Below, in pieces: positions 32,866-55,553 of a stretch of DNA of 64,000 bases. The notes under the pieces are model-generated. The model had not been told where the DNA came from. It was given only the letters and a program-made list of their open reading frames with translations, and searched no databases. The position numbers and the translations under genes were made by a program. The DNA is from Hyphomicrobiales bacterium (GTDB lineage Bacteria; Pseudomonadota; Alphaproteobacteria; Rhizobiales; Xanthobacteraceae). Each line of letters starts with the position of its first letter. The first letter of the stretch is position 1. Location of the stretch: the NCBI GenBank assembly GCA_017305535.1, contig JAFKKN010000010.1:1-64000 (forward strand), read 5' to 3'.

Positions 32866-33726
32866 ATGCTGGGCTTCGAACTTTCAGAACCCGCAACGCT
32901 CGATGAAGCGTTCGATCTGCTTGCCGACGGTGATCCCGGCGTGCGCCCGATGGGTGGCGGCACGGCGCTGATGCTGATGATGAAGGCGCAGATCTTCAAG
33001 CCGGAACGTCTTGTCAGTCTGCGGAATGTCGGTGGTTGTTTCGATGGACTGCGCATCGACGCGGATCGGTCGCACATCCGTATCGGCGGCATGACGACGT
33101 TCGCCGAGATCGAATGTTCGCCGATGGTGTTGCAGCATCTGCCGGCGGTCGTGCGCACCATGAAGACGCTGGCCAATATCCGGGTCCGTCATGTGGCGTC
33201 GGTCGGCGGCAATCTCGCGCATGCCGATCCCCATCTCGATCTTCCGCCAGTGTGGATGACCCACGCCGCCAGCATTCGCATCGTCAGCAAGACCGGTGAG
33301 CGCGTCATCCCCGTCGAGGATCTGTTCGCGGGCTATTACGAGACGACGCTTGAAGGCGGCGAGCTGATTGCTGAAGTCATCGTGCCCGTGCGACCGGAAT
33401 GGACGTCGACCTATGTGAAGGTCACGACGCGTTCCGCGCACGACTGGCCCGCGCTTGGCATTGCGGTCTCCGCCAATCTTCAGGGGCGACGCGTCAACGA
33501 CCTGCGTCTCGTTCTCAGCGCAGCGCTCGATCGGCCGACGCGGTTGGTCGCGGCCGAGAACGAATTGCGCGGCTCCGATCTCGATGAGGCGGCGCTGAAG
33601 CGCGCCGGCGAGGCCGCGGTCGCGGAAGTCGATATCCATTCCGACAGCCGAGGCTCGGCTGCCTACAAGCAACATCTTCTGCGCGTGCATCTGTCGCGCG
33701 CGATGCACTCGCTGGTGGGAGTGTAA
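32866..33726 (+). CDS. Molybdenum hydroxylase 1, FAD-binding medium subunit (CoxM-like)
   Basis: The electron-transfer flavoprotein of a three-subunit xanthine-oxidase-family hydroxylase (286 aa). FAD-binding motifs are Gly-Gly-Gly-Thr-Ala-Leu-Met (about 27-33) and Ala-Ser-Val-Gly-Gly-Asn-Leu-Ala-His-Ala-Asp-Pro-His-Leu-Asp (about 111-125). It passes electrons from the iron-sulfur subunit to an acceptor. It is the first gene of a long operon; the next gene starts 3 bp after its stop. An in-frame stop 6 bp before the ATG fixes this start. Confidence 0.9.
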   Translation: MLGFELSEPATLDEAFDLLADGDPGVRPMGGGTALMLMMKAQIFKPERLVSLRNVGGCFDGLRIDADRSHIRIGGMTTFAEIECSPMVLQHLPAVVRTMKTLANIRVRHVASVGGNLAHADPHLDLPPVWMTHAASIRIVSKTGERVIPVEDLFAGYYETTLEGGELIAEVIVPVRPEWTSTYVKVTTRSAHDWPALGIAVSANLQGRRVNDLRLVLSAALDRPTRLVAAENELRGSDLDEAALKRAGEAAVAEVDIHSDSRGSAAYKQHLLRVHLSRAMHSLVGV

Positions 33727-33729
33727 GTC

Positions 33730-36027
33730 ATGGTGGCGTTGATGCCGGTGGGCAATATCGGTCGTTCGGTCCCGCGTCTGGAGGGGCGCGACAAGGTCAT
33801 GGGGCAGGCGGAGTACACCCACCACCTTCGTTTGCCGGGAATGCTGTACGGCAAGATATTCCGCAGCACGCTGCCGCATGCTCTCATCAAGAGCGTGGAT
33901 ACGTCGGCGGCCAAGGCGGTCGAAGGCGTGTTCCGCGTCGTCACCATCGACGACATTCGCACGGTGATCCCGCATCCGTACTATGGTCCGGCCTTTCACG
34001 ATCAGCCCGTGCTGGCCGATGGAAAGGTGCGTTTCGCGGGCGAGCCGGTGGCCGTCGTTCTCGCCTCCGATCCGCGCGTCGCCGAATATGCGGCGAGCCT
34101 GATCACCGCCGAATATGAAGAACTGCCTGCCGTTCTCGACGAGGTCGAAGCGGCGGCGTCGGACATCTGCGTCCACGACGAACTGAAACCGGCCGCGACC
34201 TTTCCCGACCTTCAGCATCTGAAGGGACGGCGCGGCACCAACGTCGCGCTGGATTACCGTCTGGTGCGCGGCGATGTCGAGGCGGGGTTCGCCGCGGCGG
34301 ATCATGTCTTCGAGCATACGTTCCGGTGTCAGCAGGCGATGCACACGCCGATGGAGCCATTCGTCTCCATCGCCGATGTTCGCGACGGACGAATGACGCT
34401 GCATACTGCGTCGCAGGGGCCGTCGTTCGTCCGGATCGAGATGGCGCGGCTGCTCGGCTGGCCGGAGAACCGCGTTCGCGTCAAGGTTCCGCATCTCGGT
34501 GGTGGTTTCGGCGGCAAGCTGTATATCAAGCTCGAAGCGCTGGTGACGTCGCTGTCGCTATTGGTGCAGCGCCCGGTCAAAATCTCTCTGACCATGGAAG
34601 AGCAATTCTTCATGGTGACGAAGCACGCATGCACGTTCACCATCAAGAGCGGCGTCAACAACGACGGCAAGGTCGTCGCGCGGAAGTGCAGGATTCTCTG
34701 GAACGGCGGCGCCTATGCCGATATCGGGCCGCGCGTCACCCAGAAGGCCGGTTTCACCTCCGCCGGTCCTTACGACATCGATAACGTCGAAATCGAATCG
34801 CTCGCCGTTTACACCAACCGGCCGCCGGCGGGCGCGTTGCGCGGCTTCGGTGCGCCGCAGGCAGCGTGGGCCTATGAGTGCCACACCGATTTGATCGCCG
34901 AGGCGCTCAATTTCGACAAGATCGAATTCCGTCGCCAGAACCTGTTGAAGGAAGGGCGGCCGCAAGCGTCCGGAACGCCGGTGCACGATGCCGCGTTCGA
35001 AAAGGTGATGGATCAGGTCGCCGACAGACTCGATTGGCACAAACCTTTCAACCGCGGGAACGGGCGGATTCTGCGGGGGCGCGGCCTCGCCGTTGGTATC
35101 AAGGGCATCACCTCGCCGACAACCTCAGTTGCGATCGTCAATCTCTATGGCGACGGCAGCTGCGGTCTCTATATCGGCACGGTCGATATGGGGCAGGGCT
35201 CCGACACCGTGATGGCGCAGATCGTGGCCGAGGTGCTCGGTCTCGATGCCGAAGCGGTGCACGTCATTCATCCCGACACCGATGTCACGCCCTACGACAT
35301 GGGCACGCTGGGATCGCGATCGACGTTCCACATGGGAACGGCTGTCCGCCTTGCGGCGGAGGACGTGCTCCGCAAGATCGACGATCTTGCCAAGGAGCTT
35401 GGCCTGCCGCCCAACAGCAATCTTCCGGTCAGCGAGATGCTGCGGAAGAAATACGGCATGCAGGCCGGCAACATCATCGGCACCGGCAGCTTCATTCCCG
35501 ACTACAAAAAACCCGATCCGGAGACGGGGCAGACGCCGAAGGCGACGCCGTTCTGGGGCGTCGGTGCCAACGGCGCGGAGGTCGAGATCGACACCGAGAC
35601 CGGTGAGGTCAAGATCGTCAAGCTCGTGAACGTCGTCGATGCTGGCGTTGCCATCAATCCGCGCGCCGTCAGGCAGCAGGTCTCTGGCGCCGCGATCATG
35701 CAGATGGGCTTCACCATGACCGAGAACATGGTGTTCCGTGACGGGCAACTCACCAACGGCTCGCTGGCGGACTACAAGATTCCGTCGCTGCTCGATATGC
35801 CCGAGCAATTCGTCAACGAGTACGTGGAATCGCGCCAGCAGTCCGGGCCGTTCGGTGCCAAGGGCACCGGCGAAAGCTCCACGATCGCGCTGTCGCCCGC
35901 CATCGGAAACGCGATCGCCGATGCGATCGGTGTCCACCTCACCGACCTGCCGTTGACGCAGGAATCGATCTTCCGCGCGATCCAGAAGAAGAACGGCACG
36001 CCGCTGCCGGAGGACGACAATGACTGA
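33730..36027 (+). CDS. Molybdenum hydroxylase 1, molybdopterin-binding large subunit
   Basis: The catalytic subunit (765 aa) of an xanthine-oxidase-family enzyme that adds water-derived oxygen to a carbon next to nitrogen in N-heteroaromatics. Molybdopterin motifs are Gly-Gly-Gly-Phe-Gly-Gly-Lys (257-263), Arg-Gly-Phe-Gly-Ala-Pro-Gln (about 370) and Met-Gly-Gln-Gly-Ser-Asp-Thr. The invariant catalytic Glu is Glu715 in Gly-Ala-Lys-Gly-Thr-Gly-Glu. The Cys-bearing Ala-Tyr-Arg-Cys-Ser-Phe-Arg loop of true CO dehydrogenase is absent, so CO is not the substrate. The stop overlaps the next gene by 8 bp. A pyridine-ring substrate is an inference from the neighbours. Confidence 0.92.
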   Translation: MVALMPVGNIGRSVPRLEGRDKVMGQAEYTHHLRLPGMLYGKIFRSTLPHALIKSVDTSAAKAVEGVFRVVTIDDIRTVIPHPYYGPAFHDQPVLADGKVRFAGEPVAVVLASDPRVAEYAASLITAEYEELPAVLDEVEAAASDICVHDELKPAATFPDLQHLKGRRGTNVALDYRLVRGDVEAGFAAADHVFEHTFRCQQAMHTPMEPFVSIADVRDGRMTLHTASQGPSFVRIEMARLLGWPENRVRVKVPHLGGGFGGKLYIKLEALVTSLSLLVQRPVKISLTMEEQFFMVTKHACTFTIKSGVNNDGKVVARKCRILWNGGAYADIGPRVTQKAGFTSAGPYDIDNVEIESLAVYTNRPPAGALRGFGAPQAAWAYECHTDLIAEALNFDKIEFRRQNLLKEGRPQASGTPVHDAAFEKVMDQVADRLDWHKPFNRGNGRILRGRGLAVGIKGITSPTTSVAIVNLYGDGSCGLYIGTVDMGQGSDTVMAQIVAEVLGLDAEAVHVIHPDTDVTPYDMGTLGSRSTFHMGTAVRLAAEDVLRKIDDLAKELGLPPNSNLPVSEMLRKKYGMQAGNIIGTGSFIPDYKKPDPETGQTPKATPFWGVGANGAEVEIDTETGEVKIVKLVNVVDAGVAINPRAVRQQVSGAAIMQMGFTMTENMVFRDGQLTNGSLADYKIPSLLDMPEQFVNEYVESRQQSGPFGAKGTGESSTIALSPAIGNAIADAIGVHLTDLPLTQESIFRAIQKKNGTPLPEDDND

Positions 36028-36532
36028 CGCCCGCACCATCCGCTTCACGCTCAACGGTGCGCCGGTCTCCGTCAGCGTCATGCCGCACGAAACACTGATC
36101 GAGATGCTGTCGTTGCGCCTCGAATTGAAGGGCGCGCGCGAAAGCTGCGGCCAGGGCCTGTGCGGCTGCTGCACCGTTTATGTCAACGGCAAGTCCGTCT
36201 CGTCGTGCCTCTATCTGGCGCAACTGGTCGATGGCGCGAATGTCGTGACGATCGAGGGGATCAACGACGGCGCCAGGCTCGATCCGGTGCAGGAAGCCTT
36301 CATCGAGGTCGGCGCCTTCCAGTGCGGCTTCTGCACGCCGGGCTTCATCATGATGGCGCGCGAACTGCTCGACGTTCATCCAAACCCCACCGACGATGAA
36401 ATCCGTCACTATCTGATCGGCAATCTCTGTCGCTGTTCGGCTTATCCGGAAATCGTCGAAGCCGTGAAGCTCGCGGCGCGACGGCGCGCGGCGGGAACCG
36501 CACCAGCCCTCGCTCAGGAGTTGTCGGCATGA
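36020..36532 (+). CDS. Molybdenum hydroxylase 1, (2Fe-2S)-binding small subunit
   Basis: The electron-relay subunit (170 aa) with two [2Fe-2S] clusters: the plant-ferredoxin type (Cys-Gly-Gln-Gly-Leu-Cys-Gly-Cys-Cys, about 43-51, plus a Cys near 63) and the C-terminal helical cluster (Cys-Gly-Phe-Cys-Thr-Pro-Gly and Cys-Arg-Cys-Ser). The length is usual. It completes the first M-L-S enzyme and overlaps the LivF-like gene by 4 bp. Confidence 0.93.
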   Translation: MTDARTIRFTLNGAPVSVSVMPHETLIEMLSLRLELKGARESCGQGLCGCCTVYVNGKSVSSCLYLAQLVDGANVVTIEGINDGARLDPVQEAFIEVGAFQCGFCTPGFIMMARELLDVHPNPTDDEIRHYLIGNLCRCSAYPEIVEAVKLAARRRAAGTAPALAQELSA

Positions 36533-37284
36533 CCGCGGCCGTTGCTGAAATTTCCGGTGCGGCATCGAAGCCGCCAATTCTCTCCGTGTCCAACCTGACC
36601 GCCGGCTATGGCGACGTGCAGGTGCTGTGGGGCGTCGACCTGGTGGTGCCCAAGGGCGAGATCGTCTCCATCGTCGGTCCGAACGGCACCGGCAAGACCA
36701 CGCTTCTGCTCGCGATCTCCGGAATGGTTCGCGCGCGCAGCGGCAGCATTCAGTTCGAAGGCGAGGACATCACCAATCAAGGCGCGGATCGCATCGTCGG
36801 CAAGCGATTGATTCACGTTCCCGAGGGACGCCGGCTGTTTCCGACTCTCAGCGTACGCGACAATCTGATGCTCGGCGCCTATGCGCGCACCGACAGCGCA
36901 GCGGAGATCGCCCGCGATCTCGATCTGGTTTTCACCATCTTCCCGATCCTGGCAGAGCGCGCCAATCAGGGCGCGACGACGATGTCCGGTGGTCAGCAGC
37001 AGATGTGCGCGATCGGACGCGGCATCATGGCACGGCCGAAACTTCTCCTGATCGACGAACTGTCGCTCGGTCTTGCGCCGAAGGCGGTCGAGTTGCTTGC
37101 GGAAAGCCTGATCGAGATCAACAAGCAGGACATCTCGATTCTGCTGGTCGAGCAGGACGTGATGACGGCGTTCGAACTCGCCAGCATCGGTTACGTGCTG
37201 GAGTCCGGCCGGGTCCGCATGCATGGCGAAACCCGCGTGTTGAGTCAGGACCCGTCGGTTCAAGCCGCGTATATGGGCCTCTAG
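36529..37284 (+). CDS. Branched-chain amino acid-type ABC transporter ATP-binding protein (LivF)
   Basis: A cytoplasmic ATPase (251 aa) of the LivF family. Walker A is Gly-Pro-Asn-Gly-Thr-Gly-Lys-Thr-Thr (about 50), the signature region reads Met-Ser-Gly-Gly-Gln-Gln-Gln-Met, and Walker B is Leu-Leu-Ile-Asp-Glu-Leu-Ser-Leu-Gly-Leu. The LivF hallmark Pro-Glu-Gly-Arg-Arg-Leu-Phe is present. Its partners (LivK, LivH, LivM, LivG) lie 4-8 kb downstream in the same operon, after the second hydroxylase. This split shows that transport and hydroxylation are coexpressed, probably on the same substrate. Confidence 0.9.
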   Translation: MTAAVAEISGAASKPPILSVSNLTAGYGDVQVLWGVDLVVPKGEIVSIVGPNGTGKTTLLLAISGMVRARSGSIQFEGEDITNQGADRIVGKRLIHVPEGRRLFPTLSVRDNLMLGAYARTDSAAEIARDLDLVFTIFPILAERANQGATTMSGGQQQMCAIGRGIMARPKLLLIDELSLGLAPKAVELLAESLIEINKQDISILLVEQDVMTAFELASIGYVLESGRVRMHGETRVLSQDPSVQAAYMGL

Positions 37285-37286
37285 CG

Positions 37287-39662
37287 ATGGATGCGCTTAC
37301 GGTTCCAAACGGCAAGAAGGGGATCGGCGGTTCGATCCTGCGTAACGAGGACGAGCGGCTGCTCTCCGGGCGCAGCACCTTCATTGCCGATATCAGCCAG
37401 CCGGGGATGTGGGAGATTGCCTTCCTGCGCAGCCCCGTGGCGCATGCCAACATCCTGAGCGTGACCAAGCCGGAAGGTTTCGAACAGCGCGTCTTCCTGC
37501 TGTCGGACCTCGGCGACATTCGCCCGATTCAAGCGGACTCGCAGGCCAAGGGTTTTCGGCGTTCCGATTATCCGGCGCTCGCCAACGACCGGGTGCGCTT
37601 TGTCGGCGAGCCGATTGCGATCTGTCTCGGACGCACCCGCGCGGAAGCCGAAGACCTCGCGCAGGCGGTGTTCGTTGAGTTCGAGGAACTGCCTGCGGTC
37701 AGCGATCTGTCGCAGTGCCGCGATCCCGCTTATCCGCCGATCCATCCTGGCTGGAACGACAATCTTTTCCTTGAGACGCATATCGATGTCGGCGATGTCG
37801 ATGCCGCGCGTGCCAAGGCCGCCGTTTCGCTCACCCGCCAGTATCGCATGAACCGGCAAGCGATCGTTTCGCTCGAGGGCCGCGGGGTGATGAGCTACAT
37901 CGACGAGCGGACCGGCGAACTCGTCGTCTACTCGTCCACGCAGTTTCCGCATGTGATCCGGACCGCGCTCGCGCATTGCCTGAACATGCAGGAGCGTGAA
38001 CTGCGCGTCGTCGCCCCCGAAGTCGGCGGCAGTTTCGGGGTGAAGAACAATCTCAATCCGGAAGAGATCGCGATCGCCGCGCTGACGAAAAAAATCCGCA
38101 AGCCGATCCGCTGGGTCGAGGATCGTCGCGAGCATCTGATCGCGGCTCCGCACGCACGCGAGCATCGCTACGAAGTCACGGTGCATGCCGACAAGGACGG
38201 ACTGATCCTGGGGCTGGAAGCATCGATCGATGTCGACGCCGGGGCGTATTCGGTGTGGCCGTGGACGTCGCCGATGGAATCCGGAATGGCGATCGGCTTC
38301 CTTCCGGGCACCTACACCATTTCGAATTACCGCGCGACCGCGCGAACCTGCGCCAGCAACAAGTCGCCGATGGGGCCGTATCGCGGCGTCGGCCGGCCGG
38401 GCGCATGCTTCGCCATCGAGCGGACCATCGAGGAACTGGCGGTGCATCTCGGCCTCGATCCGGTCGAGGTGCGATTGCGCAACTACGTTCGGCCCGATCA
38501 GTTCCCGTGGAAGTCGGCCGGCGGCAAGACTTACGACAACGGCAACTACGCCGAGAGCGCGATCGCCGCGCGCGATCTGATCAAGCCGGAGCGGCTCACT
38601 GAGCTGAGGCAGCGCTACGCGGACAGCGATTACCTGATTGGTCTCGGCTATGCGACCTATCTCGAACAGACCGCGCACGGCACGGCGGAGTGGGTTCAGC
38701 GCGGCCTTCCGGTGGTGTTCGGCTACGAGCAGGCCGCGTTGCAGATGACGCCGGACGGCATGCTGATCATCGACGTGCCGATCCAGAATCACGGGCAGGG
38801 ACTCGAGACCACGCTGGCGCAGGTCGCCAACGAGGAACTCGGCATTGATCCGGCGCAGGTGGTGGTGCGCCATGGCGACACCAGCATGGCGCCCTACGGC
38901 ATGGGCACCTTTGCCTCGCGCTCCATGGTGATGTCTGGAGGCGCTGTCGGCTGCGCCAGCGCGCTTCTGGCCGACAAGCTGCGCAAGATCGGCGCGCATC
39001 TGTTGCAGGTGCAGGACAGCGATGTCCGTCTGGAGGACGGCTTCGTGGTCGCCAACGCATCTGGCGGCGCGAAGATCTCGTTGAAGGAAATCGCCGTCGC
39101 GGCGTTCCTGCGTCCTGAGCGATTGCCCGACGACGTCGATCCCGGTCTTTCGGTGGTCGCATCGTACAGAACCTCGCGCGATACCGGCGCCTGGTCGTAC
39201 GGCACTCACGCCGCGATCGTGGCGGTCGATCGCGGCACCGGCATGGTGCACATCCTCGACTATGTGATCGCGCATGATTGCGGCACCATCGTCAATCCGA
39301 TGATCGTCGACGGTCAGATGATGGGCGGACTGGCGCAGGGCATCGGTACCGCGCTTTACGAGGAGATGCCGTACAGCGCCGAGGGCCAGCCGCTGGCTTC
39401 GACCTTCATGGATTATCTGGTGCCCGGGGCATCCGAAATGCCTCACACCACCATCGAGCATCTCTGCTCGCCGTCGCCGATCACGCGTTACGGCATCAAG
39501 GGGATGGGCGAGGGTGGCGCGATCCCGCCGCCTGCCTCGCTCTGCAACGCGGTCAATGACGCGATTCGTTCGCTCGGCGCGTCGATCAACGAAACGCCGA
39601 TGACGCCGGACCGCGTGCTGCGCGCTCTGCTCGACGCGCAAGCCGGGAGTGCTACCGCATGA
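37287..39662 (+). CDS. Molybdenum hydroxylase 2, molybdopterin-binding large subunit
   Basis: A second catalytic subunit (791 aa), only distantly related to the first. The molybdopterin motif reads Val-Gly-Gly-Ser-Phe-Gly-Val-Lys; the active-site loop is Pro-Tyr-Arg-Gly-Val-Gly-Arg-Pro (364-371), the form II-type loop; and Glu742 in Gly-Ile-Lys-Gly-Met-Gly-Glu is the expected catalytic Glu. ATG 37287, 2 bp after the LivF stop, is the start; the reading frame is open upstream but overlaps LivF in another frame. Together with the medium and small subunits that follow it would carry out a second hydroxylation. Confidence 0.9.
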   Translation: MDALTVPNGKKGIGGSILRNEDERLLSGRSTFIADISQPGMWEIAFLRSPVAHANILSVTKPEGFEQRVFLLSDLGDIRPIQADSQAKGFRRSDYPALANDRVRFVGEPIAICLGRTRAEAEDLAQAVFVEFEELPAVSDLSQCRDPAYPPIHPGWNDNLFLETHIDVGDVDAARAKAAVSLTRQYRMNRQAIVSLEGRGVMSYIDERTGELVVYSSTQFPHVIRTALAHCLNMQERELRVVAPEVGGSFGVKNNLNPEEIAIAALTKKIRKPIRWVEDRREHLIAAPHAREHRYEVTVHADKDGLILGLEASIDVDAGAYSVWPWTSPMESGMAIGFLPGTYTISNYRATARTCASNKSPMGPYRGVGRPGACFAIERTIEELAVHLGLDPVEVRLRNYVRPDQFPWKSAGGKTYDNGNYAESAIAARDLIKPERLTELRQRYADSDYLIGLGYATYLEQTAHGTAEWVQRGLPVVFGYEQAALQMTPDGMLIIDVPIQNHGQGLETTLAQVANEELGIDPAQVVVRHGDTSMAPYGMGTFASRSMVMSGGAVGCASALLADKLRKIGAHLLQVQDSDVRLEDGFVVANASGGAKISLKEIAVAAFLRPERLPDDVDPGLSVVASYRTSRDTGAWSYGTHAAIVAVDRGTGMVHILDYVIAHDCGTIVNPMIVDGQMMGGLAQGIGTALYEEMPYSAEGQPLASTFMDYLVPGASEMPHTTIEHLCSPSPITRYGIKGMGEGGAIPPPASLCNAVNDAIRSLGASINETPMTPDRVLRALLDAQAGSATA

Positions 39663-40522: not shown

Positions 40523-40995
40523 TGCAGATCATCAAACTGCGCGTCAACGGCGAAGAGGTCGAGACGGCGATCGATCCACGCACGACGCTTGCCGATTTTC
40601 TGCGCCAGCACGTCGATGCGCGCTCGATTCATCTTGGCTGCGAGCACGGCGTGTGCGGTGGCTGCACCATCGTCATCAACGGCAAGATGGCGCGATCCTG
40701 TATCGCGCTCGCCGCGACGATGGATGGCGCCGAGATCTGGACGCTGGAAGGTTTGAAGGACGATCCGGCGATCGTTCAGCTCCGGCAGAGTTTTCACGAG
40801 TGCCACGGCCTGCAATGCGGCTATTGCACGCCCGGCATGCTGATTACCGCGCGGGACATCATCGCACGTTATGGCGAGCCCGACGAGAAATTTTTGCGCG
40901 AGGCGCTGGCCGGCAACATCTGCCGATGCACGGGATACGCCGGAATCGTGAAGGCGGTTCAGCATGCGGCGGCGCAACTCGCGCGCCGCGACTGA
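40522..40995 (+). CDS. Molybdenum hydroxylase 2, (2Fe-2S)-binding small subunit
   Basis: An iron-sulfur subunit (157 aa) with Cys-Glu-His-Gly-Val-Cys-Gly-Gly-Cys and the C-terminal Cys-Gly-Tyr-Cys-Thr-Pro-Gly and Cys-Arg-Cys-Thr-Gly-Tyr motifs. The ATG overlaps the TGA of the medium subunit. It ends the second hydroxylase; a 72-bp gap then leads to the transporter binding-protein gene. Confidence 0.92.
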   Translation: MQIIKLRVNGEEVETAIDPRTTLADFLRQHVDARSIHLGCEHGVCGGCTIVINGKMARSCIALAATMDGAEIWTLEGLKDDPAIVQLRQSFHECHGLQCGYCTPGMLITARDIIARYGEPDEKFLREALAGNICRCTGYAGIVKAVQHAAAQLARRD

Positions 40996-41067
40996 ACTAA
41001 TTGCGACAGAGGAATTGGCTGAAAGCGCATGGCTTGTCAGTCCCAATACAGTGAGAGGGGAAACAAC

Positions 41068-42267: not shown

Positions 42268-42298
42268 CTCCCACAACTCGAGAACCGACGCGGGCGTC

Positions 42299-46394: not shown

Positions 46395-46435
46395 CCGACG
46401 ATTCCTTGCTGTTGGCGGCGGAAGGCACGGGCCGG

Positions 46436-47536: not shown

Positions 47537-48962
47537 GTTTCGCCGCTCCCTGTCCTGCCGCGCGCCCGAAGACGCTGCCGATGGTCATGCCGATTCCGGC
47601 CGCGTAGCCTTGCCCCAGCACGTTTCCCGCCATGATTTCCCCGGCCGCGAACATGTTCGCGGCGGGCTTTCCGTCGCTCATGATCATCCGCGCTTCCTTG
47701 TTCACCTTGACGCCGAGATAGGTGAAGGTGATGCCGGGGCGCACCGGATAGGCGTAGAACGGCCCTTGCTCGATCTTGCGCGCCCAGTGTGTCTTGGGCG
47801 GCGTCAGGCCGGCGGTGGCGCAATCGTCATAGTTGTCCGGATCGAAGGTGCCGGGCTGCACGGCGTTGTTGAACGTCGCGACCGTCTTGGTGAGCTTTTC
47901 GGGATCGAGACCGAGCTGTCCGGCCAGTTCGGCGATGCTGTCGCCTTTGATCGGCGGGAACAGCGACGGCATGAACAGTTCCAGTGAGCGCGCATCGAAG
48001 ATGATGTAGGCGATCTGGTCAGGCTGTGCCGCCACTAGCCGTCCCCAGATGGCGTAGCGTTTCGGCCAGATGTCTTCGCCCTCGTCGTAGAAGCGCTCGC
48101 AATTCTTGTTCACGACAATGCCGTAAATGACGCAATCCAGTCGCGTGATGATTCCGCCGTCGAACTTCGGCGCGCGCGCGTCGATCGCGACCGCGTGGCA
48201 TTGCGTGACATCGCCGATCTGCTGGATATCGTTGTCGATCAGGATGCGCAGGATGGTGCCGCGATTGTACGGGGTGCCGCGAATGAGGAAGTTGCCGGCG
48301 ATCTCGCCCCAGCCTTGCTTGAGCCAATCGATATTGGCCTCGAAGCCGCCGGATGCCGCGACCAGCGCGCCGGCGCGGACTTGCGAGGTGCCGGTCTGTT
48401 CCTTCACGGTCGCCGACAGAAACATGCCGTTCTCGATCTCGAGCCCGACGACTTCGGCGTCATAGCGAATCTCGACGCCGAGTTGCTCGGCGGTGGCGTA
48501 AAGCGCGTTCAGCATGGCGCGGCCGCCGCCGAGGAAGAATGAGTTGGTGCGCCCCAGAGAAAGCGTTCCGCCCAGCGACGGCTGAAAGCGGACGCCCTGA
48601 TCGACGATCCAGGTCAGCATTTCCTTGGATTGCGCGATCATGTGGCGCGCCAGTTCTTCGTCGGTCCGGCCTTGCGTGACGCGCTTCAGGTCTTCCCAGA
48701 ACTCGTCTTCGGTGTAGGGGCCGCTGAGGGTTTCGGTGGCGCTGTCGTGCGCGCAACGCATGTTGCGGGTGTGTCGGGTGTTGCCGCCGCGATAGAATTG
48801 CGGCGCCGCTTCGAGCACCAGCACGCTTGCGCCGGCGCGGCGTGCGCTGATGGCCGCGCACAGGGCGGCGTTACCGCCGCCGATCACCAGCACGTCATGC
48901 CGACGTCCCGCGGTTTCATCCCTCCGGCTCGCGACGTGCCCGGCAATCTCCCCGTTCTTCAA
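47523..48962 (-). CDS. tcuA: FAD-dependent tricarballylate dehydrogenase
   Basis: Oxidises tricarballylate to cis-aconitate, which enters the TCA cycle (characterised in Salmonella). The 479-aa protein has the FAD-binding Val-Leu-Val-Ile-Gly-Gly-Gly-Asn-Ala-Ala-Leu-Cys-Ala-Ala motif (about 24-37) and the TcuA-type Arg-Gly-Gly-Asn-Thr-Arg-His-Thr-Arg-Asn-Met-Arg (about 58-69); the C-terminal end has the fumarate-reductase-like flavin site Gly-Glu-Ile-Met-Ala-Gly-Asn-Val-Leu-Gly-Gln-Gly-Tyr. The TcuC transporter and TcuR regulator genes known from Salmonella are not adjacent, which hints that tricarballylate is made inside the cell. Confidence 0.88.
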   Translation of the reverse strand: MKNGEIAGHVASRRDETAGRRHDVLVIGGGNAALCAAISARRAGASVLVLEAAPQFYRGGNTRHTRNMRCAHDSATETLSGPYTEDEFWEDLKRVTQGRTDEELARHMIAQSKEMLTWIVDQGVRFQPSLGGTLSLGRTNSFFLGGGRAMLNALYATAEQLGVEIRYDAEVVGLEIENGMFLSATVKEQTGTSQVRAGALVAASGGFEANIDWLKQGWGEIAGNFLIRGTPYNRGTILRILIDNDIQQIGDVTQCHAVAIDARAPKFDGGIITRLDCVIYGIVVNKNCERFYDEGEDIWPKRYAIWGRLVAAQPDQIAYIIFDARSLELFMPSLFPPIKGDSIAELAGQLGLDPEKLTKTVATFNNAVQPGTFDPDNYDDCATAGLTPPKTHWARKIEQGPFYAYPVRPGITFTYLGVKVNKEARMIMSDGKPAANMFAAGEIMAGNVLGQGYAAGIGMTIGSVFGRAAGQGAAKHARN

Positions 48963-49310
48963 GGTTTGACTCCCCCCGACATCACCCGTCTTCGCTGCAA
49001 TGGAACGTGCTGTTCGTTCGCTTTAGACCGCTGTCGGCTTGTCTGTAAAGCAAAAATACAAAAAATGGTACATATTGCGCGGATGACGATCGCAGGCGCG
49101 TGTTCCGGGCGGTGAATATTCCTATGAAGTGCCAAAATGTCGAGGATATTTAGTCGATTAGTGTATTTGAGATGTGCGAAATATCCGCTGGCGTTCCGTT
49201 CCATAACTGATCTTTCTGGGGTATTTCTGAGTTCGCTGAGAAAATTATGCTTGCCTTGTACCAAAAATGCGACGATCACTGTTTTTAGAACGAGAAGGAT
49301 TGATGAGGCG
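48963..49310. promoter_or_regulatory. Divergent promoter region between tcuA and the amidase operon
   Basis: This 348-bp AT-rich gap has no gene. It must hold the promoters of both the tcuA operon (-) and the amidase operon (+). Two copies of a GGTACA element are present: 49067-49072 in the direct sense within CAAAAAATGGTACA, and 49257-49262 in the reverse sense; a related element lies upstream of the regulator gene near 54430. Exact -35/-10 boxes could not be fixed. Confidence 0.45.
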
Positions 49311-50645
49311 ATGATCGAGCCGGATGCGTCGCGTGCTCCGAACCGTCTGACTGCGACCGAAGCAGCAGCGTTGATCTCGGCGGGGAGGCTGTCGCCCTCC
49401 GCGCTGGTTCAGTCGTGTCTGGACCGTATCGCGATGCGCGAGCGGGCGGTTCGTGCCTGGGCGAATATCGATCCGGCGGCGGCGATGGATCAGGCGCGCG
49501 GGCGCGACGCGGCCGCCTCAAGCGGGCCGCTGCACGGGATTCCCGTCGCGGTAAAGGACGTGATCGATGTCGCGGGTTCGCCGACCGGAATGGGGTCGCC
49601 GATCTATGACGGCTATAGTCCGCTCGCCGATGCCGCCTGTGTCGCGACGCTCCGATCCGCCGGCGCGGTGATTCTCGGCAAGACCGTCACCGCGGAATTC
49701 GCGGGCGTTTCTCCCGGTCCGACCACGCATCCGGCCGCGCCGAATCGCACGCCGGGCGGCTCATCGAGCGGGTCGGCGGCGGCGGTCGCCGATCACATGG
49801 TCCCGCTTGCGCTTGGGACACAAACCGGCGGCTCGATCATTCGGCCGGCGGCGTTCTGCGGTGTCGTCGGATTCAAGCCGAGCTTCGGTACGATCAATCG
49901 CGCCGGCCTGAAGTTGGCCGCCGAGAGTTTCGATACCATCGGGATGATGGCGCGCGACGTCGACGACATCGCGCTGGTCTGGCGTGTGTTGGCGGGAGCC
50001 GATGCCGCGGCGCCCGGCGCGCTCGAGAGTCCGCCGCGCCTGTTGGTATTTCGTAGCCATCATTGGAATCGCGCTGCGCCCGAAACCGTGTCAGCGGTTG
50101 CCCAGACCGTGCGTCGTCTGCGGGATCGCGGCGCGCGCATCGAGGAGTTGCCGGTGCCGGACGGCTTTGCCGAATTGAGCAAGGCGCGGGTGATTATCAA
50201 CGGTTACGAGCGCGCCCGTGCGCTGGCGTGGGAGTTGCAGCATCACGCGGGGCAACTCAGCGAGGCGATGTTGCGTGTCGTCAATAATGGCTGGACCTAC
50301 TCATACGGCGACTATGTCGCCGCGGTGAAAGTGGCGCAAAGCTGGCGTGCCCGCATTGCCGATATCGTCGGCGCCCACGATGCGATCCTGACCGCGGCGG
50401 TCAACGGCGAGGCCCCGGTGGGGTTCGCCTCCACCGGCGATGCGTCATTTCAGGAAATCTGGAGCCTGCTGCATCTGCCCGCCATCACCTTGCCGTTGGC
50501 GACGGGGCCGTCCGGACTGCCCGTCGGCGTGCAGTTGGTCGGACGATATCTTGACGACGCCCGGCTTCTTCAATTGGCGAAGTGGGCGCTCGACACCTGC
50601 ACGCCGCCGTCTCCATTCGAATCCACTGACACCGGGAGTTCCTGA
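49311..50645 (+). CDS. Amidase (amidase signature family)
   Basis: A 444-aa amidohydrolase with the Ser-cisSer-Lys triad: Lys82 in Val-Lys-Asp-Val, probable cis-Ser152 in Gly-Gly-Ser-Ser-Ser-Gly-Ser, and nucleophile Ser175 in Thr-Gly-Gly-Ser-Ile-Ile-Arg-Pro-Ala. It would release ammonia from a carboxamide, fitting removal of the nitrogen from a ring-opened intermediate. ATG 49311 is used, since the open frame before it is AT-rich leader. First gene of the operon; the CoxG-like gene starts at its last base. The precise substrate is inferred from context only. Confidence 0.9.
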   Translation: MIEPDASRAPNRLTATEAAALISAGRLSPSALVQSCLDRIAMRERAVRAWANIDPAAAMDQARGRDAAASSGPLHGIPVAVKDVIDVAGSPTGMGSPIYDGYSPLADAACVATLRSAGAVILGKTVTAEFAGVSPGPTTHPAAPNRTPGGSSSGSAAAVADHMVPLALGTQTGGSIIRPAAFCGVVGFKPSFGTINRAGLKLAAESFDTIGMMARDVDDIALVWRVLAGADAAAPGALESPPRLLVFRSHHWNRAAPETVSAVAQTVRRLRDRGARIEELPVPDGFAELSKARVIINGYERARALAWELQHHAGQLSEAMLRVVNNGWTYSYGDYVAAVKVAQSWRARIADIVGAHDAILTAAVNGEAPVGFASTGDASFQEIWSLLHLPAITLPLATGPSGLPVGVQLVGRYLDDARLLQLAKWALDTCTPPSPFESTDTGSS

Positions 50646-51244
50646 TGCAGTTTTCAAACAGTTTCAATGTGTCGTTGCCGCCCGCCGACGCGTGGCGGAT
50701 GCTGATGAACATTCCCGCGATCGCGCCCTGCATGCCGGGCGCGGAATTAACGGAAGTTGTCGACCCGGAAACCTACAAGGGCAAGGTCGCGGTTCGCATG
50801 GGGCCGGTGGTGCTTGCCTTCGCGGGCATTGCCAAATTCGAGGAGCGCGACGACACCGCACACACCGCGCGCGTCAAGGCGCAGGGAACGGATTCCAAGG
50901 GGCGCGGCGGCGCCAGCGCCACCGCCAGCTTTCGGCTCGAGCCGAACGGGGCCGGCAGCAAGGTGCTGATCGATACCGATCTCAATCTGTCGGGGTCCGT
51001 GGCGCAGTATGGCCGCAGCGCGGGCATGATTCAGACCATCGCCGCGCAACTCATCAATCAGTTCGCGAAATCGATCGAGAAGCAGATCGCGGCGTCGGCC
51101 GACGCCCCGGGGGGCGACGCCGCGGCGCCGGCGCAAGCCTCCGCGGCGAAGCCGATCGGAGCGATTTCCCTGGTCGCGGGTGCGATGTGGACCACCGTGA
51201 AGCGCCCGTTCGGCGCCAAGAATGAAGATGAAAGAGACGCATGA
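50645..51244 (+). CDS. CoxG-like SRPBCC family protein with C-terminal extension
   Basis: A 199-aa CoxG relative. Residues 1-145 match the SRPBCC fold (Cys-Met-Pro-Gly-Ala-Glu-Leu near 30 is typical). The rest is an Ala/Pro-rich linker and a short end that could contact the membrane. As it lies in an operon without a hydroxylase of its own, it may serve one of the two hydroxylases encoded 5-18 kb upstream, or bind the small-molecule intermediate. It overlaps the ligase gene by 4 bp. Confidence 0.85.
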   Translation: MQFSNSFNVSLPPADAWRMLMNIPAIAPCMPGAELTEVVDPETYKGKVAVRMGPVVLAFAGIAKFEERDDTAHTARVKAQGTDSKGRGGASATASFRLEPNGAGSKVLIDTDLNLSGSVAQYGRSAGMIQTIAAQLINQFAKSIEKQIAASADAPGGDAAAPAQASAAKPIGAISLVAGAMWTTVKRPFGAKNEDERDA

Positions 51245-52908
51245 TCAGCACGATGTTGACGTTACTGTCGCGCCGGAAACTGGAGCAAAACTACGCTCTG
51301 GGATATTGGCGGGACGACACCATTTTCTCGCTGGTCAGGCATCATGCGGCTGCCATTCCGGACAAGGTCGCGGTTCGCGACCGCTCGTGTGAGATCACTT
51401 ATCGCGAGCTTGCGTCACGCGCGGAGGCGTTGTCGGCCGCGCTCAAGGCGGCCGGACTTCAGCCCGGCAATCGTGTTGCCGTCTGGCTCTCCAGCCGGAT
51501 CGAAGTTGCGATCGCGCTCGTTGCCTGCTCGCACGGCGGTTACGTGTGCTGCCCGTCGCTGCATCGCGACCATACCTCGTCCGAGGTGATCGAACTGATG
51601 GAGCGCATGCGGGCCGCGGCCTTCATCGGTGAAGCCGGTTACGGCGCCGACGCCGCGCGCCGCGATATTTTCGCCGATCTCGATCGGGTATCGACACTGA
51701 AGACGATCTTCAAGCTGGGACCGGTCGGCGGGCACGATGAACTGCCGCTGCCAGCCGCCGGCGCGACCACGGGTGACGCGTTCAATTCCGACCCCAATAT
51801 CGTTGTCTATCTCGCATTCACCTCGGGTACCACCGGGCGCCCGAAAGGCGTGATGCACAGCGACAACACGCTGCTCGCCAACGCGCGGGCCATGATCGCC
51901 GATTGGCAATTTGGCCAGCATTCGGTGATCTACACGATGAGCCCGCTCAGTCACAATCTCGGGCTCGGCTCGCTGATCATGGCGCTCGCCGTCGGTGGCG
52001 AACTTGTCGTTCACGATCTGCGTCGCGGGGCCAGCACGCTCGATCGCATCATCGAGGTCGGCGCCACCTTCATCGTCGGCGTGCCGACCCATGCGATGGA
52101 CCTGCTGACCGAGATGAAAGCGCGGAAGATGGCTTCGCCCGGGCGTGTCAGGGGATTCAGAATCTCGGGCGCGTCGGCGCCGCGCGAGGTGATCGCGCAA
52201 CTGATCGAAACCGGTGTGATGCCGCAAAGCGGCTACGGCATGACGGAGGCCGGATCGCATCACTATACGCGGATGGACGACAGCGCCGATCGTGTGGTGC
52301 AGACCTCCGGTCGCGCATGCGATGGCTATGAAGTGAAGATCTTCTCGCAGGACGACGCCAATCGCGAAGTCGCGATCGGAGAGATCGGCCAGATCGGCGG
52401 ACGCGGCGCGAGCCTGATGATCGGATACTTCGACGATCAGCATGCCAACGACGAAGCCTTCAATGCCGAAGGCTGGTTCATGACCGGCGATATCGGCCGG
52501 CTCGATCAGGACGGATATCTACAGATCACCGGCCGGAAGAAGGATCTGATCATTCGCGGTGGACACAACATCTATCCGGCGCGAATCGAGAACCTTGCCA
52601 TGCAGCACCCGGAGATTTCGCGCGCGGCGGCGCTGCCGGTGCCGGATCAGCGGCTGGGTGAGAAGGTCTGCCTCGCCGTGATGCTGAAGCCCGGCTCGTC
52701 GTTGACGTCCGACGACGTTCTCGATCATCTCGATCGCTCCGGCCTGTCGCGCTACGACATGCCGGAATACTATCTGCATCTCGATGCGATCCCGTTGACC
52801 GCCAGCGGCAAGATTCTCAAGCGCGATATCGCGTCTCAGGTCGCCGAAGGCAAGCTCGCACCGGTGCCGGTCCGGTTCGTGCCGCGCGGGAATGCGGTGC
52901 TCGCATGA
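51241..52908 (+). CDS. Acyl-CoA synthetase (AMP-forming), likely aromatic/heterocyclic acid CoA ligase
   Basis: An adenylate-forming enzyme of 555 aa that couples ATP hydrolysis to CoA-thioester formation. Core motifs are Thr-Ser-Gly-Thr-Thr-Gly-Arg-Pro-Lys-Gly (about 197), Tyr-Gly-Met-Thr-Glu-Ala (about 330), Thr-Gly-Asp-Ile-Gly-Arg-Leu-Asp (about 416) and the C-terminal catalytic Lys in Ala-Ser-Gly-Lys-Ile-Leu-Lys. It is near-neighbour-like to cyclohexanecarboxylate-CoA ligases. In context it would activate a hydroxylated pyridine carboxylate (for example citrazinate) so that the ring can be reduced. The acid itself is not shown by the sequence. Confidence 0.88.
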   Translation: MISTMLTLLSRRKLEQNYALGYWRDDTIFSLVRHHAAAIPDKVAVRDRSCEITYRELASRAEALSAALKAAGLQPGNRVAVWLSSRIEVAIALVACSHGGYVCCPSLHRDHTSSEVIELMERMRAAAFIGEAGYGADAARRDIFADLDRVSTLKTIFKLGPVGGHDELPLPAAGATTGDAFNSDPNIVVYLAFTSGTTGRPKGVMHSDNTLLANARAMIADWQFGQHSVIYTMSPLSHNLGLGSLIMALAVGGELVVHDLRRGASTLDRIIEVGATFIVGVPTHAMDLLTEMKARKMASPGRVRGFRISGASAPREVIAQLIETGVMPQSGYGMTEAGSHHYTRMDDSADRVVQTSGRACDGYEVKIFSQDDANREVAIGEIGQIGGRGASLMIGYFDDQHANDEAFNAEGWFMTGDIGRLDQDGYLQITGRKKDLIIRGGHNIYPARIENLAMQHPEISRAAALPVPDQRLGEKVCLAVMLKPGSSLTSDDVLDHLDRSGLSRYDMPEYYLHLDAIPLTASGKILKRDIASQVAEGKLAPVPVRFVPRGNAVLA

Positions 52909-53363
52909 CGCCGGCGGTCGCGGGCAAGGACGCGCGGAAGGCGTTCGATCGTGTCGCCGCGCTCGCGCAGTTGCAAAGGGAAATGGCGGAGCCGCCGTTT
53001 CACGATTTTCTCCGGCCACAGGCCGTCGATGTCGAAAGCAACGGGACTGTCACGGTGCGGCTGCCGTTCCGGCCGGAATTCCGCCGTCGCGGCGACAGTC
53101 CTTTTATCCACGGCGGTGTCATTGCCTCGCTGGCCGATTTGACCGCGCATGCCGCGGTAGCGGTTCAGGTTCAGCGGATGGTGCCGACGATCGATCTGCG
53201 TATCGACTATCTCCGCGCTGCGCCGGAAGGCGATCTCACCGCGACCGGACGAATCCTGATCGTCGGCAGGTCGATCGGACGAGCCGACGTCGAGATCACG
53301 GGGACAAGCGGGAAAATTCTGGCAGTGGCGCGAGGCACATTCAGCACGCGCGAAAGTGAGTGA
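52905..53363 (+). CDS. PaaI-type hotdog-fold thioesterase
   Basis: A 152-aa hotdog-fold acyl-CoA thioesterase. The active-site region Phe-Ile-His-Gly-Gly-Val-Ile-Ala-Ser-Leu-Ala-Asp (about 65-77) is as in PaaI. It probably hydrolyses the CoA thioester made by the ligase, either to release an end product or to recover CoA from stalled intermediates. It overlaps the ligase gene by 4 bp and precedes the reductase gene by 12 bp. Confidence 0.88.
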   Translation: MTPAVAGKDARKAFDRVAALAQLQREMAEPPFHDFLRPQAVDVESNGTVTVRLPFRPEFRRRGDSPFIHGGVIASLADLTAHAAVAVQVQRMVPTIDLRIDYLRAAPEGDLTATGRILIVGRSIGRADVEITGTSGKILAVARGTFSTRESE

Positions 53364-53375
53364 AGGGATTTCAGC

Positions 53376-54362
53376 ATGCGAGCAGTGGTCGTGCGCGAGT
53401 TCGGTGCGCCGGAGAGTCTGTCGATCGAGCAGGTTGCGGCTCCGCGTCCCGGACCGGACGAAGTTCTCGTCGAGGTCGAGGCGGTCGGCGTCAATTTCGT
53501 CGATCTGCTGGTGATCGGCGGCACTTATCAGTTCCTGCCGCCGCGCCCGTTCGCGCCGGGCAAGCTGCCCGCCGGCCGCGTCATCGCGATCGGCGATAAC
53601 GTCAAGAGGTTCTCTGTCGGCGACCGGGTGCTGACCACCGCAGAGCAGGGAGGCTATGCGGAGCAGGCCGTCGCTTTAGCCGAACATTGCTATCGTATTC
53701 CGGACAGCATGTCGTTCACCGAAGCTGCCGCGATGGCACTGGCGTTCGACACCGCCTGGTTCGCGCTTCATGAACGCGGACGTCTGCGCGCCGGCGAGAC
53801 GGTGCTGGTGCTCGGTGCCACCGGCGCGGTGGGGCTTGCCGCGATTCAGTTGGCCAAGGCTTTTGGCGCGCGCGTCATTGCCGGTGTTTCGTCGATGAAC
53901 AAAGCGGACATCGTCACGACGGCAGGCGCCGATGGCGTAGTCGATCTGTCGGTGGAGAACCTCCGCGACGGACTGCGCGAGCAGGTCCATGCTCTCACGG
54001 ACGGGCGCGGCGCGGACGTGGTCGTGGACTCGCTGGGCGATCGCTTTTTTGCTGCGGCCTTGCGGGCCATGGCGTGGTCCGGTCGTCTCGTCGTGGTCGG
54101 CTTTGCCGCCGGCGAAATCCCCTCCGTGAAGGTGAACTACCTCATGGTCAAGAACATCGAGGTCAGCGGGCTGCAAGTGAGCGACTACCGCAAGCGTATG
54201 CCAGCCCGCATGCGGGAATGTTTCGAGCAGATCTTCTCCCTTTACGAGCAGGGAGCGGTCCGGCCACCAAACACGTCGGTTCGGCCGCTGGACGGTTTTG
54301 CACAGGCGCTCGCGGAAATTCGCGACCGCAAGTCCAAGGACCGTATTGTCCTTACGCCCTAA
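53376..54362 (+). CDS. MDR-family NADPH-dependent reductase (quinone oxidoreductase-like)
   Basis: A zinc-independent medium-chain dehydrogenase/reductase (328 aa). The GroES-like N-terminal domain is followed by the nucleotide-binding Gly-Ala-Thr-Gly-Ala-Val-Gly-Leu-Ala-Ala-Ile-Gln-Leu-Ala motif (about 148-161). No structural zinc cysteine cluster is present. Relatives include quinone reductases and 2-enoyl-CoA (acrylyl-CoA) reductases; placed after a CoA ligase and a thioesterase, reduction of a double bond in the CoA-activated ring is the best guess (inference). The gene ends 43 bp before a palindrome upstream of the regulator. Confidence 0.85.
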   Translation: MRAVVVREFGAPESLSIEQVAAPRPGPDEVLVEVEAVGVNFVDLLVIGGTYQFLPPRPFAPGKLPAGRVIAIGDNVKRFSVGDRVLTTAEQGGYAEQAVALAEHCYRIPDSMSFTEAAAMALAFDTAWFALHERGRLRAGETVLVLGATGAVGLAAIQLAKAFGARVIAGVSSMNKADIVTTAGADGVVDLSVENLRDGLREQVHALTDGRGADVVVDSLGDRFFAAALRAMAWSGRLVVVGFAAGEIPSVKVNYLMVKNIEVSGLQVSDYRKRMPARMRECFEQIFSLYEQGAVRPPNTSVRPLDGFAQALAEIRDRKSKDRIVLTP

Positions 54363-54404
54363 GGCTCGCGCGGTCCTTCGCGGGGAGGGGGAGCAAAAAT
54401 TGGG

Positions 54405-54451: not shown

Positions 54452-54461
54452 ATAGAGGGAG

Positions 54462-55553
54462 ATGTCCGAAGCAACTCAAGGGTGTCTTCGCGCGCCGTTG
54501 CTTCCGGACCGCGTGAGGCGTCAAAGACGACTCCAGGAAAGGTCGACAGGTGCTGAATTGACCGTCCGTTATAAAGAGATTGCAGACCGGTTGCGCGCAT
54601 TCCGGCTCGGCTCAGGACTGAGCGCGGATGAGATCGCGAAACGCGTCGGCATCTCCCGGACGGCGCTTTATCGCTTTGAAAAAGGCGAGCTTGCCAAAAT
54701 TGAGACACTCGAGAAACTTTCGGAGTTGCTGGGAGTCTCGATGCCGACCCTCTTGGGTGTTGGCATCGAGTTCATGCCGTCGGCCGTCAGTTACTTCGAG
54801 CGGATGCGTCAGTTCGAGGAAACCGCCGAGCACATCATTGCGCTGTCCGGGCCGATTTCATTCCTGCTCGCGTCGGATCGCTTCCTCGATCTGCTCAATA
54901 CCGTCCTGAAAGAGAGCCTGCCGCCGGACTTGCCAGATCGGGAAAAGTTCGTGGCGCAGGTCGACAGGATTCTCGAAATTCTTCAACAGCGAAAAGTCAC
55001 CTATCGCCGCCGCAGGCCGGGCATTCTCAACCTGATTTCGGCGCGCGAAATTCGCCGTTTCGTGCAGAGCGGCTTCATCGGCAATCCGTCCATCACGGGC
55101 GATCTGCTCGAGGAGCGCCGCGCCCTGGCGCGCGCGGAGGTCGAGCATTTCGCGAACGTCGTTGAAGAACAGGCGATCGGCGTTCAGATCGGTCTCGTCA
55201 CGGAATCATTGCCGCATACGCATTTCCAGATTTTCAGGATGGCCGATACCAAGATGCTGACGCTGAGCCCGTTCCGTCTTGGCGAGCAGCCCAACATCCG
55301 GCTGGGCGTGGCGATGATTACCTCGGCGCCGGAAGCCATCAGCCTTCACGAAAAAGTCGTCAACGAGATGTGGCGCGGCGCGATCAAGGGGCCCGATGCC
55401 GCGGCTCATTTGCGAAGTCTCGTGACCGTCGAGGGACAACAAGCTGCTCCCGCCGTTGCGGACATTCCGCATGAGCCGTTGGAAAAAGCGATCGCGCGCG
55501 ATGCCGGGCGAGATAAGAAGTCTCCGCGTCGCATTCGCCCGGCGCAGGAGTGA
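54462..55553 (+). CDS. XRE family transcriptional regulator with large C-terminal domain
   Basis: A DNA-binding regulator (363 aa). An N-terminal XRE/Cro helix-turn-helix lies at about 38-95 (Ser-Ala-Asp-Glu-Ile-Ala-Lys-Arg-Val-Gly-Ile-Ser-Arg-Thr-Ala-Leu-Tyr-Arg-Phe-Glu-Lys recognisable, a long motif at 54-74). Residues about 105-330 form a large domain without an assigned fold. It probably senses a CoA ester or the substrate and controls the cluster (inference from position). ATG 54462 is used; a TTG at 54558 would start just before the helix-turn-helix. The first 30 residues are basic and do not look like the family. Confidence 0.82.
   Translation: MSEATQGCLRAPLLPDRVRRQRRLQERSTGAELTVRYKEIADRLRAFRLGSGLSADEIAKRVGISRTALYRFEKGELAKIETLEKLSELLGVSMPTLLGVGIEFMPSAVSYFERMRQFEETAEHIIALSGPISFLLASDRFLDLLNTVLKESLPPDLPDREKFVAQVDRILEILQQRKVTYRRRRPGILNLISAREIRRFVQSGFIGNPSITGDLLEERRALARAEVEHFANVVEEQAIGVQIGLVTESLPHTHFQIFRMADTKMLTLSPFRLGEQPNIRLGVAMITSAPEAISLHEKVVNEMWRGAIKGPDAAAHLRSLVTVEGQQAAPAVADIPHEPLEKAIARDAGRDKKSPRRIRPAQE

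Follow-up and report, generated by a model that had tools for sequence, protein, structure and literature searches.

The window analysed here is a 64,000-nucleotide stretch of contig JAFKKN010000010.1 from a Hyphomicrobiales bacterium; between positions 32866 and 55553 (22.7 kb) it contains 21 genes, disposed in three blocks, which probably encode the uptake and degradation of a pyridine carboxylate. Each gene is an open reading frame with family support from Pfam, NCBIfam or the PDB, as follows (coordinates, strand, product, and evidence; scores in bits; FAD, flavin adenine dinucleotide; Mo, molybdenum; ABC, ATP-binding cassette; CoA, coenzyme A; HTH, helix-turn-helix).

32866..33726, plus: FAD subunit of hydroxylase 1 (Pfam FAD_binding_5 and CO_deh_flav_C)
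33730..36027, plus: Mo subunit of hydroxylase 1 (Pfam; best PDB match 1rm6, 315 bits)
36020..36532, plus: [2Fe-2S] subunit of hydroxylase 1 (Pfam Fer2_2 and Fer2)
36529..37284, plus: LivF-type ABC ATPase (Pfam ABC_tran; best NCBIfam model LivF, under its cut-off)
37281..39662, plus: Mo subunit of hydroxylase 2, quinoline 2-oxidoreductase-like (Pfam; best PDB match 1t3q_B, 510 bits)
39659..40522, plus: FAD subunit of hydroxylase 2 (Pfam FAD_binding_5)
40519..40995, plus: [2Fe-2S] subunit of hydroxylase 2 (Pfam on the longer frame 40444-40995; NCBIfam)
41029..42267, plus: LivK-type periplasmic binding protein (Pfam Peripla_BP_6)
42299..43156, plus: LivH-type permease (Pfam BPD_transp_2)
43147..44148, plus: LivM-type permease (Pfam BPD_transp_2)
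44145..44927, plus: LivG-type ABC ATPase (Pfam ABC_tran and BCA_ABC_TP_C)
44959..45411, plus: CoxG-like SRPBCC protein 1 (Pfam COXG)
45501..46394, minus: PuuE-superfamily hydrolase, proposed cyclic imidase (TIGR03212, 94.9 against a cut-off of 424.6; PDB 3cl6 and 3qbu)
46436..47536, minus: TcuB, iron-sulfur partner of tricarballylate dehydrogenase (TIGR02484, 447.9 against a cut-off of 246.6)
47523..48962, minus: TcuA, FAD-dependent tricarballylate dehydrogenase (NF006130, 706.8 against a cut-off of 369)
49137..50645, plus: amidase-family hydrolase, proposed half-amidase (Pfam Amidase)
50645..51244, plus: CoxG-like SRPBCC protein 2 (Pfam COXG)
51241..52908, plus: acyl-CoA ligase, proposed citrazinate-CoA ligase (Pfam AMP-binding)
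52905..53363, plus: hotdog acyl-CoA thioesterase (Pfam 4HBT; TIGR00369)
53376..54362, plus: MDR-family reductase, proposed ring reductase (Pfam ADH_N and ADH_zinc_N; best NCBIfam model quinone_pig3, under its cut-off)
54462..55553, plus: HTH regulator (Pfam HTH_3)

The first block runs on the plus strand from hydroxylase 1 (FAD, Mo and iron-sulfur subunits) through LivF, hydroxylase 2 (Mo, FAD and iron-sulfur subunits) and LivK, LivH, LivM and LivG to the first CoxG-like gene, with spacings of -10 to +33 bases, and both hydroxylases and the importer genes are interwoven in this one run of overlapping genes. The second block, on the minus strand, consists of tcuA, tcuB and the imidase gene; the tcuA and tcuB frames share 14 bases, and the imidase gene follows tcuB after 41 bases. 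The third block begins 174 bases from tcuA and carries, on the plus strand, the amidase, CoxG-like, CoA ligase, thioesterase, MDR and HTH regulator genes. Within the blocks, adjacent genes mostly share a few bases or are separated by no more than 41 bases, the widest gap being the 99 bases between the MDR and the HTH genes; such close packing indicates that the gene set was not assembled by chance. An earlier note on this DNA, made from the letters alone, had listed two complete molybdenum hydroxylases, a Liv importer, a CoA ligase, an MDR reductase, a thioesterase, a PuuE-like hydrolase, an amidase and TcuAB, all of which were confirmed by the family searches; the two CoxG-like proteins and the HTH regulator, both recurrent in related clusters, come in addition.

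TcuA also exceeds the cut-off of a second NCBIfam equivalog (594.3 against 372.55), while TcuB, which has no Pfam match, exceeds that of TIGR02484 but stays under that of the subfamily model NF011607 (469.8 against 524). No Pfam match to major facilitator superfamily or tripartite tricarboxylate transporter families was found among the genes of the span, the imidase being outside the Pfam run and the rest of the genome not being searched for TcuC; thus there is no TcuC gene beside tcuAB, and the absence reported in the earlier note holds for the span. The Salmonella tcuABC operon, as treated in PMC10468695, shares the TcuA and TcuB families with the cluster; unlike in that operon, tcuAB in the window is without an adjacent TcuC gene and is associated with ring-degradation genes. 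That TcuA converts tricarballylate to cis-aconitate is stated by the title of a 2006 article cited there.

The adjoining hydrolase belongs to a family conserved among the genomes scanned. In the PDB it matches the PuuE allantoinase 3cl6 (E 7.5e-20); its match to 3qbu, a structure of HpPgdA, is weaker (E 1.9e-07). Its TIGR03212 score makes it a superfamily relative of PuuE and, by this model, not an allantoinase. A competing plus-strand frame on the opposite strand (45732-46439) has no Pfam match. According to PMC9304392 and PMC8478523, the PuuE/HpPgdA superfamily includes cyclic imidases; in fungal nicotinate catabolism, HxnM has been proposed, because of the compound that its deletion mutant accumulates, to act ahead of the amidase HxnN by opening 3-hydroxypiperidine-2,6-dione (PMC9304392), and its identity to a cyclic-imide hydrolase from bacteria exceeds 60% (PMC8478523). 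The fungal steps resemble those proposed here, a 2,6-piperidinedione being opened by a cyclic imidase of this superfamily before an amidase releases the nitrogen, but the ring substituent and the upstream enzymes are different. In the same papers HpPgdA is given as the closest structural relative of HxnM, whereas the imidase of the window matches PuuE better; the likeness to HxnM is seen at the superfamily level, through 3qbu and 3cl6.

Both hydroxylases retain in their Mo subunits the GxKGxGE loop, which we take to be the catalytic-glutamate loop. The best solved relatives of these subunits, 4-hydroxybenzoyl-CoA reductase (1rm6) for hydroxylase 1 and quinoline 2-oxidoreductase (1t3q) for hydroxylase 2, are distant, and neither hydroxylase reaches the NCBIfam cut-offs of the named enzymes tested. 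Indeed, hydroxylase 1 scores far under the alpha, beta and gamma equivalogs of 4-hydroxybenzoyl-CoA reductase (502.7, 118.6 and 130.8 against 994.55, 404.55 and 257.8, respectively), and hydroxylase 2 far under two large-subunit models of aerobic CO dehydrogenase (562.5 and 434.4 against 950 and 991.15); both identities were rejected on these scores. Relatives of hydroxylase 1 are found amid other genes on plasmids of Ancylobacter (64% identity), Salipiger (57%) and Rhodococcus (43%); a further one lies on a Paraburkholderia plasmid whose record carries no annotation. The CoA ligase was rejected as a pathway marker when taken alone: its homologs on Achromobacter (49%) and Celeribacter (46%) plasmids stand in beta-oxidation-like company, with no annotated deacetylase-type or Tcu gene in the 31 kb shown.

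Taken together, the gene families make it likely that the cluster serves to import and degrade a pyridine carboxylated at C4, most likely isonicotinate, by way of citrazinate, a glutarimide and tricarballylate. In the route proposed, with substrates and order of steps as we infer them, the Liv importer would take up isonicotinate, and the two molybdenum hydroxylases would hydroxylate C2 and C6 to give citrazinate, which the CoA ligase would convert into citrazyl-CoA. The MDR reductase would then reduce the ring double bond conjugated to the thioester, and the thioesterase would release CoA at this point or later. The PuuE-type imidase would open the resulting glutarimide, the amidase would free ammonia to yield tricarballylate, and TcuAB would oxidize the latter to cis-aconitate, which may enter the citric acid cycle. 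The earlier note had claimed a matching gene for each step of such a pathway, and the family searches bear this out; what the sequences show directly is the gene content, its packing, the TcuA and TcuB families and a recurring linkage, the assignment of substrates being our inference.

Aerobic isonicotinate catabolism in Mycobacterium sp. INA1 was reportedly described in 1993 by Kretzer, Frunzke and Andreesen as proceeding through CoA activation and ring reduction to tricarballylate. For the tricarballylate that a pathway of this type would form, TcuA and TcuB of the window, both over equivalog cut-offs (TcuB by TIGR02484), are candidate enzymes. Two hydroxylase sets, a CoA ligase and reductase genes, with the substrates presumed above, are present; INA1 is, unlike the source of the window, a mycobacterium, and the likeness drawn here is one of pathway chemistry. 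The actinobacterial cluster that came to light is that of plasmid pLDW-10, described below. PMC4548258 records, for isonicotinate degradation by INA1, hydroxylation steps giving 2,6-dihydroxy-substituted products.

The interpretation is well supported by comparative evidence from related sequences. Most of the gene set, partly in the same order, is present on the 62.8 kb plasmid pDP3 (NZ_CP051297.1) of the betaproteobacterium Alicycliphilus denitrificans DP3, which codes for the CoA ligase (74-75% identity), thioesterase (60%), MDR (73%), imidase (80%), amidase (60%), HTH regulator (72%; 50-63% in several other maps), a CoxG-like protein, the Liv importer (65-81%) and hydroxylase 1 (61-75%, the Mo subunit at 75%, comparable to 75% in G385 and 78% in G387, two of the genomes considered below). 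TcuA (55%) and TcuB (48%) are encoded 17 kb from the imidase, next to a LysR gene. Differently from the window, TcuAB of pDP3 is of another lineage, its second hydroxylase is not orthologous to hydroxylase 2 (Mo subunit, 35%), and genes for XdhC-type and nucleotidyltransferase proteins are added. A diverged set is carried by the Arthrobacter crystallopoietes plasmid pLDW-10, with a long TcuA, CoA ligase (53-54%), MDR (51%), thioesterase, molybdenum-cofactor genes, an SRPBCC protein and an asparaginase. It also codes for a polysaccharide-deacetylase protein that shares 30% identity with the imidase, a weaker match being adjacent, and a single hydroxylase is seen in the 41.6 kb displayed, its Mo subunit being 38% identical to that of hydroxylase 1. 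Searches of the open PubMed Central (PMC) literature gave no paper naming strain DP3 and nothing of use on pLDW-10.

Among 385 genomes of the class, an imidase homolog (E 1e-30) was found in 83 and a TcuA over the cut-off in 92, four TcuA candidates being scored per genome. TcuA lies within 20 kb of the imidase in 5 of the 24 genomes whose imidase is at least 50% identical, against 0.3 expected, and in 4 against 0.28 when the genome of the window is excluded. For this calculation rows were compiled by hand from the imidase and TcuA surveys; G367 (both genes at contig ends), G373 (32 kb apart) and G053, although a weaker imidase copy (38%) adjoins its TcuA, were counted as not linked. Named genomes were also scanned, using the best 80 of 255 loci, 35 of which reach at least 20 kb and many of which are incomplete. 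CoA ligase (at least 48% identity) and MDR (at least 50%) were each found in 19 of these 80 and together in 17; a Mo-subunit match occurred in 35, the HTH regulator (at least 50%) in 19, the amidase (at least 40%) in 20, the thioesterase (at least 50%) in 8, TcuA in 17 at 30% identity or more and in 5 at 60% or more, and TcuB in 5. Several sample genomes are the same as named loci (G128 is L077, G277 L080, G104 L098, G300 L097, G378 L099, G210 L101 and G060 L074), and the counts are therefore not independent.

Locus L061 matches the cluster gene for gene and in identical order, at 79-98% identity, as far as it reaches, ending inside the gene of the hydroxylase 1-type Mo subunit (Mo1), and the incomplete Hyphomicrobiales locus L062 covers the part from the HTH regulator to the imidase at 84-96%. 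TcuAB is found near the imidase, in differing gene orders, in Telmatospirillum G128 (CoA ligase 55%, MDR 56%, amidase only 32%), in Pseudolabrys G387 (15 kb apart; CoA ligase 58%, MDR 63%, amidase 47%), in Rhodospirillales G277, where neither CoA ligase nor MDR is seen because the contig begins at CoxG, and in the marine Rhodospirillaceae G396, which has another ring-reduction module. Thus the search for the same gene set in other genomes, which the earlier note had proposed, reveals a linkage that recurs on pDP3 and in these four genomes and, in diverged form, on pLDW-10.

A tree of 25 hand-picked TcuA proteins, 12 of them encoded near an imidase (within about 17 kb), needs six changes of the near-imidase label, at least four of which are forced on well-supported branches; as few changes as this were seen in 20 of 500 label shuffles. 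The pDP3 protein groups with those of Alcaligenaceae and with the other TcuA of the window's own genome, and that of Telmatospirillum with the second TcuA of its genome. Each change can be a gain or a loss, and because at least four fall on well-supported branches, the tree implies that the pairing of TcuA with the imidase arose, or was lost, several times. A longer type of TcuA (31-37% identical to that of the window) also occurs near the imidase in other clusters, without a TcuB match; that of L069 is over NF006130 (563.5) and under TIGR02485 (246.1). The pairing of several TcuA lineages with one imidase family is, in our judgement, the best evidence that both may serve one route. The recurrent linkage, the several TcuA lineages and the fungal imidase/amidase parallel thus lend support to the pathway outlined in the earlier note.

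Several observations weigh against this reading. G385 and G386 carry imidase (78%), CoA ligase (62-68%) and MDR (65-68%), and no TcuA was found in them at E 1e-60, 43 of 73 first-look candidates having been scored in G385 and 43 of 65 in G386, with assembly completeness not given. The Alcaligenaceae G400-G403 (Bordetella, Paracandidimonas, Achromobacter) have the core without TcuA nearby, the nearest one over the cut-off being on another contig in G400 and 79, 55 and 47 kb off in G401, G402 and G403 (marginal in the last, at 372.7 bits). Among the 21 loci with imidase at 63% or more, several of them incomplete, a TcuA match lies inside 12 and none inside 9, one of which, L067, carries TcuAB elsewhere on its contig, at a distance of 15 kb; four of the 21 (L070, L074, L075 and L081) are without CoA ligase, MDR, HTH, amidase and TcuA matches. 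Likewise, the 40 kb mapped around the imidase homologs of G060 and G373 (69-74%) contain neither a CoA ligase nor an MDR match. The genome of the window itself has a second TcuAB pair of another lineage (L059; G000:C1:486458-487831). The hydroxylases are a further limit: their types, labelled Mo1, Mo2, Mo5 and Mo6 in this analysis, differ between related clusters, and across maps of 21 places, the window and L061 are the only ones with a Mo subunit whose best match is hydroxylase 2. In view of the clusters without linked TcuA or ring-reduction genes, the imidase family appears to have roles in more than one setting, with TcuAB a frequent but not obligate partner.

The varied hydroxylases bear on two other explanations. 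One of the two enzymes might belong to a different route, for instance that of quinoline or another N-heterocycle; the present pathway would then use the other enzyme alone and start from a compound that already carries a hydroxyl group. The PDB match of hydroxylase 2 to quinoline 2-oxidoreductase, the different second hydroxylase of pDP3, the plasmid relatives of hydroxylase 1 in other gene company and the one hydroxylase seen on pLDW-10 are in favor of this; yet both enzymes are interwoven with the importer in one overlapping run, and two or more hydroxylase sets recur in many of the 21 mapped places, so that we consider it doubtful. It is rather unlikely, too, that the substrate is a different N-heterocyclic acid (a pyridine dicarboxylate or a nicotinate-type compound) degraded through a glutarimide, with TcuAB acting on a homologous tricarboxylate, or on tricarballylate after a decarboxylation. 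Some related clusters are without a linked TcuA, and a class II aldolase-type protein, distantly related to dihydroxyphthalate decarboxylase, is encoded in L113 (291-998) and in the clusters of G386, G387, G401, G402 and G403; together with the varied hydroxylases, this protein suggests that several entry substrates exist, and it may feed hydroxylated pyridine dicarboxylates into the pathway by decarboxylating them. On chemical grounds, however, a carboxyl at C3 would yield a 1,1,3-tricarboxylate, which would not be a substrate of TcuA, and in the window TcuAB is packed with the imidase. In G387 the aldolase-type gene stands just before tcuAB.

The same packing bears on whether two unrelated units merely adjoin, one for N-heterocycle degradation and one, tcuAB, for external tricarballylate. 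TcuAB occurs elsewhere in the genome and TcuA is common in the class, as counted above, but tcuAB and the imidase gene are close-packed on one strand, a Tcu-type transporter gene was not found beside tcuAB, and the neighbourhood recurs with different TcuA lineages, which makes such a coincidence very improbable. Degradation of isonicotinate through citrazinate and tricarballylate remains the reading that we prefer.

The other ring-reduction module of G396 consists of a pair of proteins resembling dihydroorotate dehydrogenase (DHODH) and PyrK, accompanied by imidase, amidase, two hydroxylases, HTH and TcuAB; the 38 kb scanned gave no match to CoA ligase or MDR. The pair is found in 14 of the best 80 imidase loci (L069, L088, L090-L093, L097-L101, L107, L117 and L131), and CoA ligase or MDR in 21; both modules coincide in 1 locus against 3.7 expected (P 0.065), a near-exclusion that is suggestive only. 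The best PDB relatives of the DHODH-like protein are dihydroorotate dehydrogenases; the G396 protein retains the NISCP stretch, while LNAIGLQN of 5ue9 is replaced by IQSIGLPG. In 13 of 14 distinct DHODH-like proteins aligned from imidase loci, positions occupied by asparagine in the solved relative carry the same changes; these 13 show IIQS and NISCPT, and the G373 protein has MLNS and NISCPN; the altered positions are presumably those that bind orotate in the solved relatives. Replacing one ring nitrogen of orotate by carbon gives the dioxo form of citrazinate, and a reductase of the orotate type would therefore be a fitting substitute for the CoA ligase and MDR. The cluster could represent one version of a modular and widespread family of pyridine pathways that form a glutarimide, with a hydrolytic core (imidase, amidase and often TcuA), exchangeable hydroxylases and one of two ring-reduction modules, either CoA ligase plus MDR or the DHODH-like and PyrK-like pair reducing free citrazinate; for this broader view we judge the balance to be about even.

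The surroundings of the cluster contain a BrnA-type antitoxin gene upstream (30914-31231) and, at 56529-57755, a protein with an adenylate/guanylate cyclase domain, a 31-33% similar protein being encoded near imidase homologs in L127 and in the Reyranella loci L130, L134 and L140. A LysR regulator, an intradiol dioxygenase and an iron-containing alcohol dehydrogenase, which we assume to be maleylacetate-reductase-like, follow at 57809-60797 and may form a separate aromatic catabolic cluster next door.

The chemistry of the isonicotinate pathway has reportedly been known since 1993. Our search of the open PMC literature found no gene-level paper on isonicotinate or citrazinate degradation, although subscription journals were outside the search and such a paper may exist; within the literature searched, the biochemistry is known already, whereas the gene set and the modular family appear to be new. 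Isonicotinate is the core of the drug isoniazid. If the interpretation is true, the cluster would supply the genes for a pathway known by its chemistry and would explain isonicotinate mineralisation; it also points to a natural function for a tricarballylate dehydrogenase whose substrate arises within the cell. Each step of the pathway would become testable gene by gene, and the window would belong to a wider family, in part plasmid-borne, with two ways of reducing the ring.

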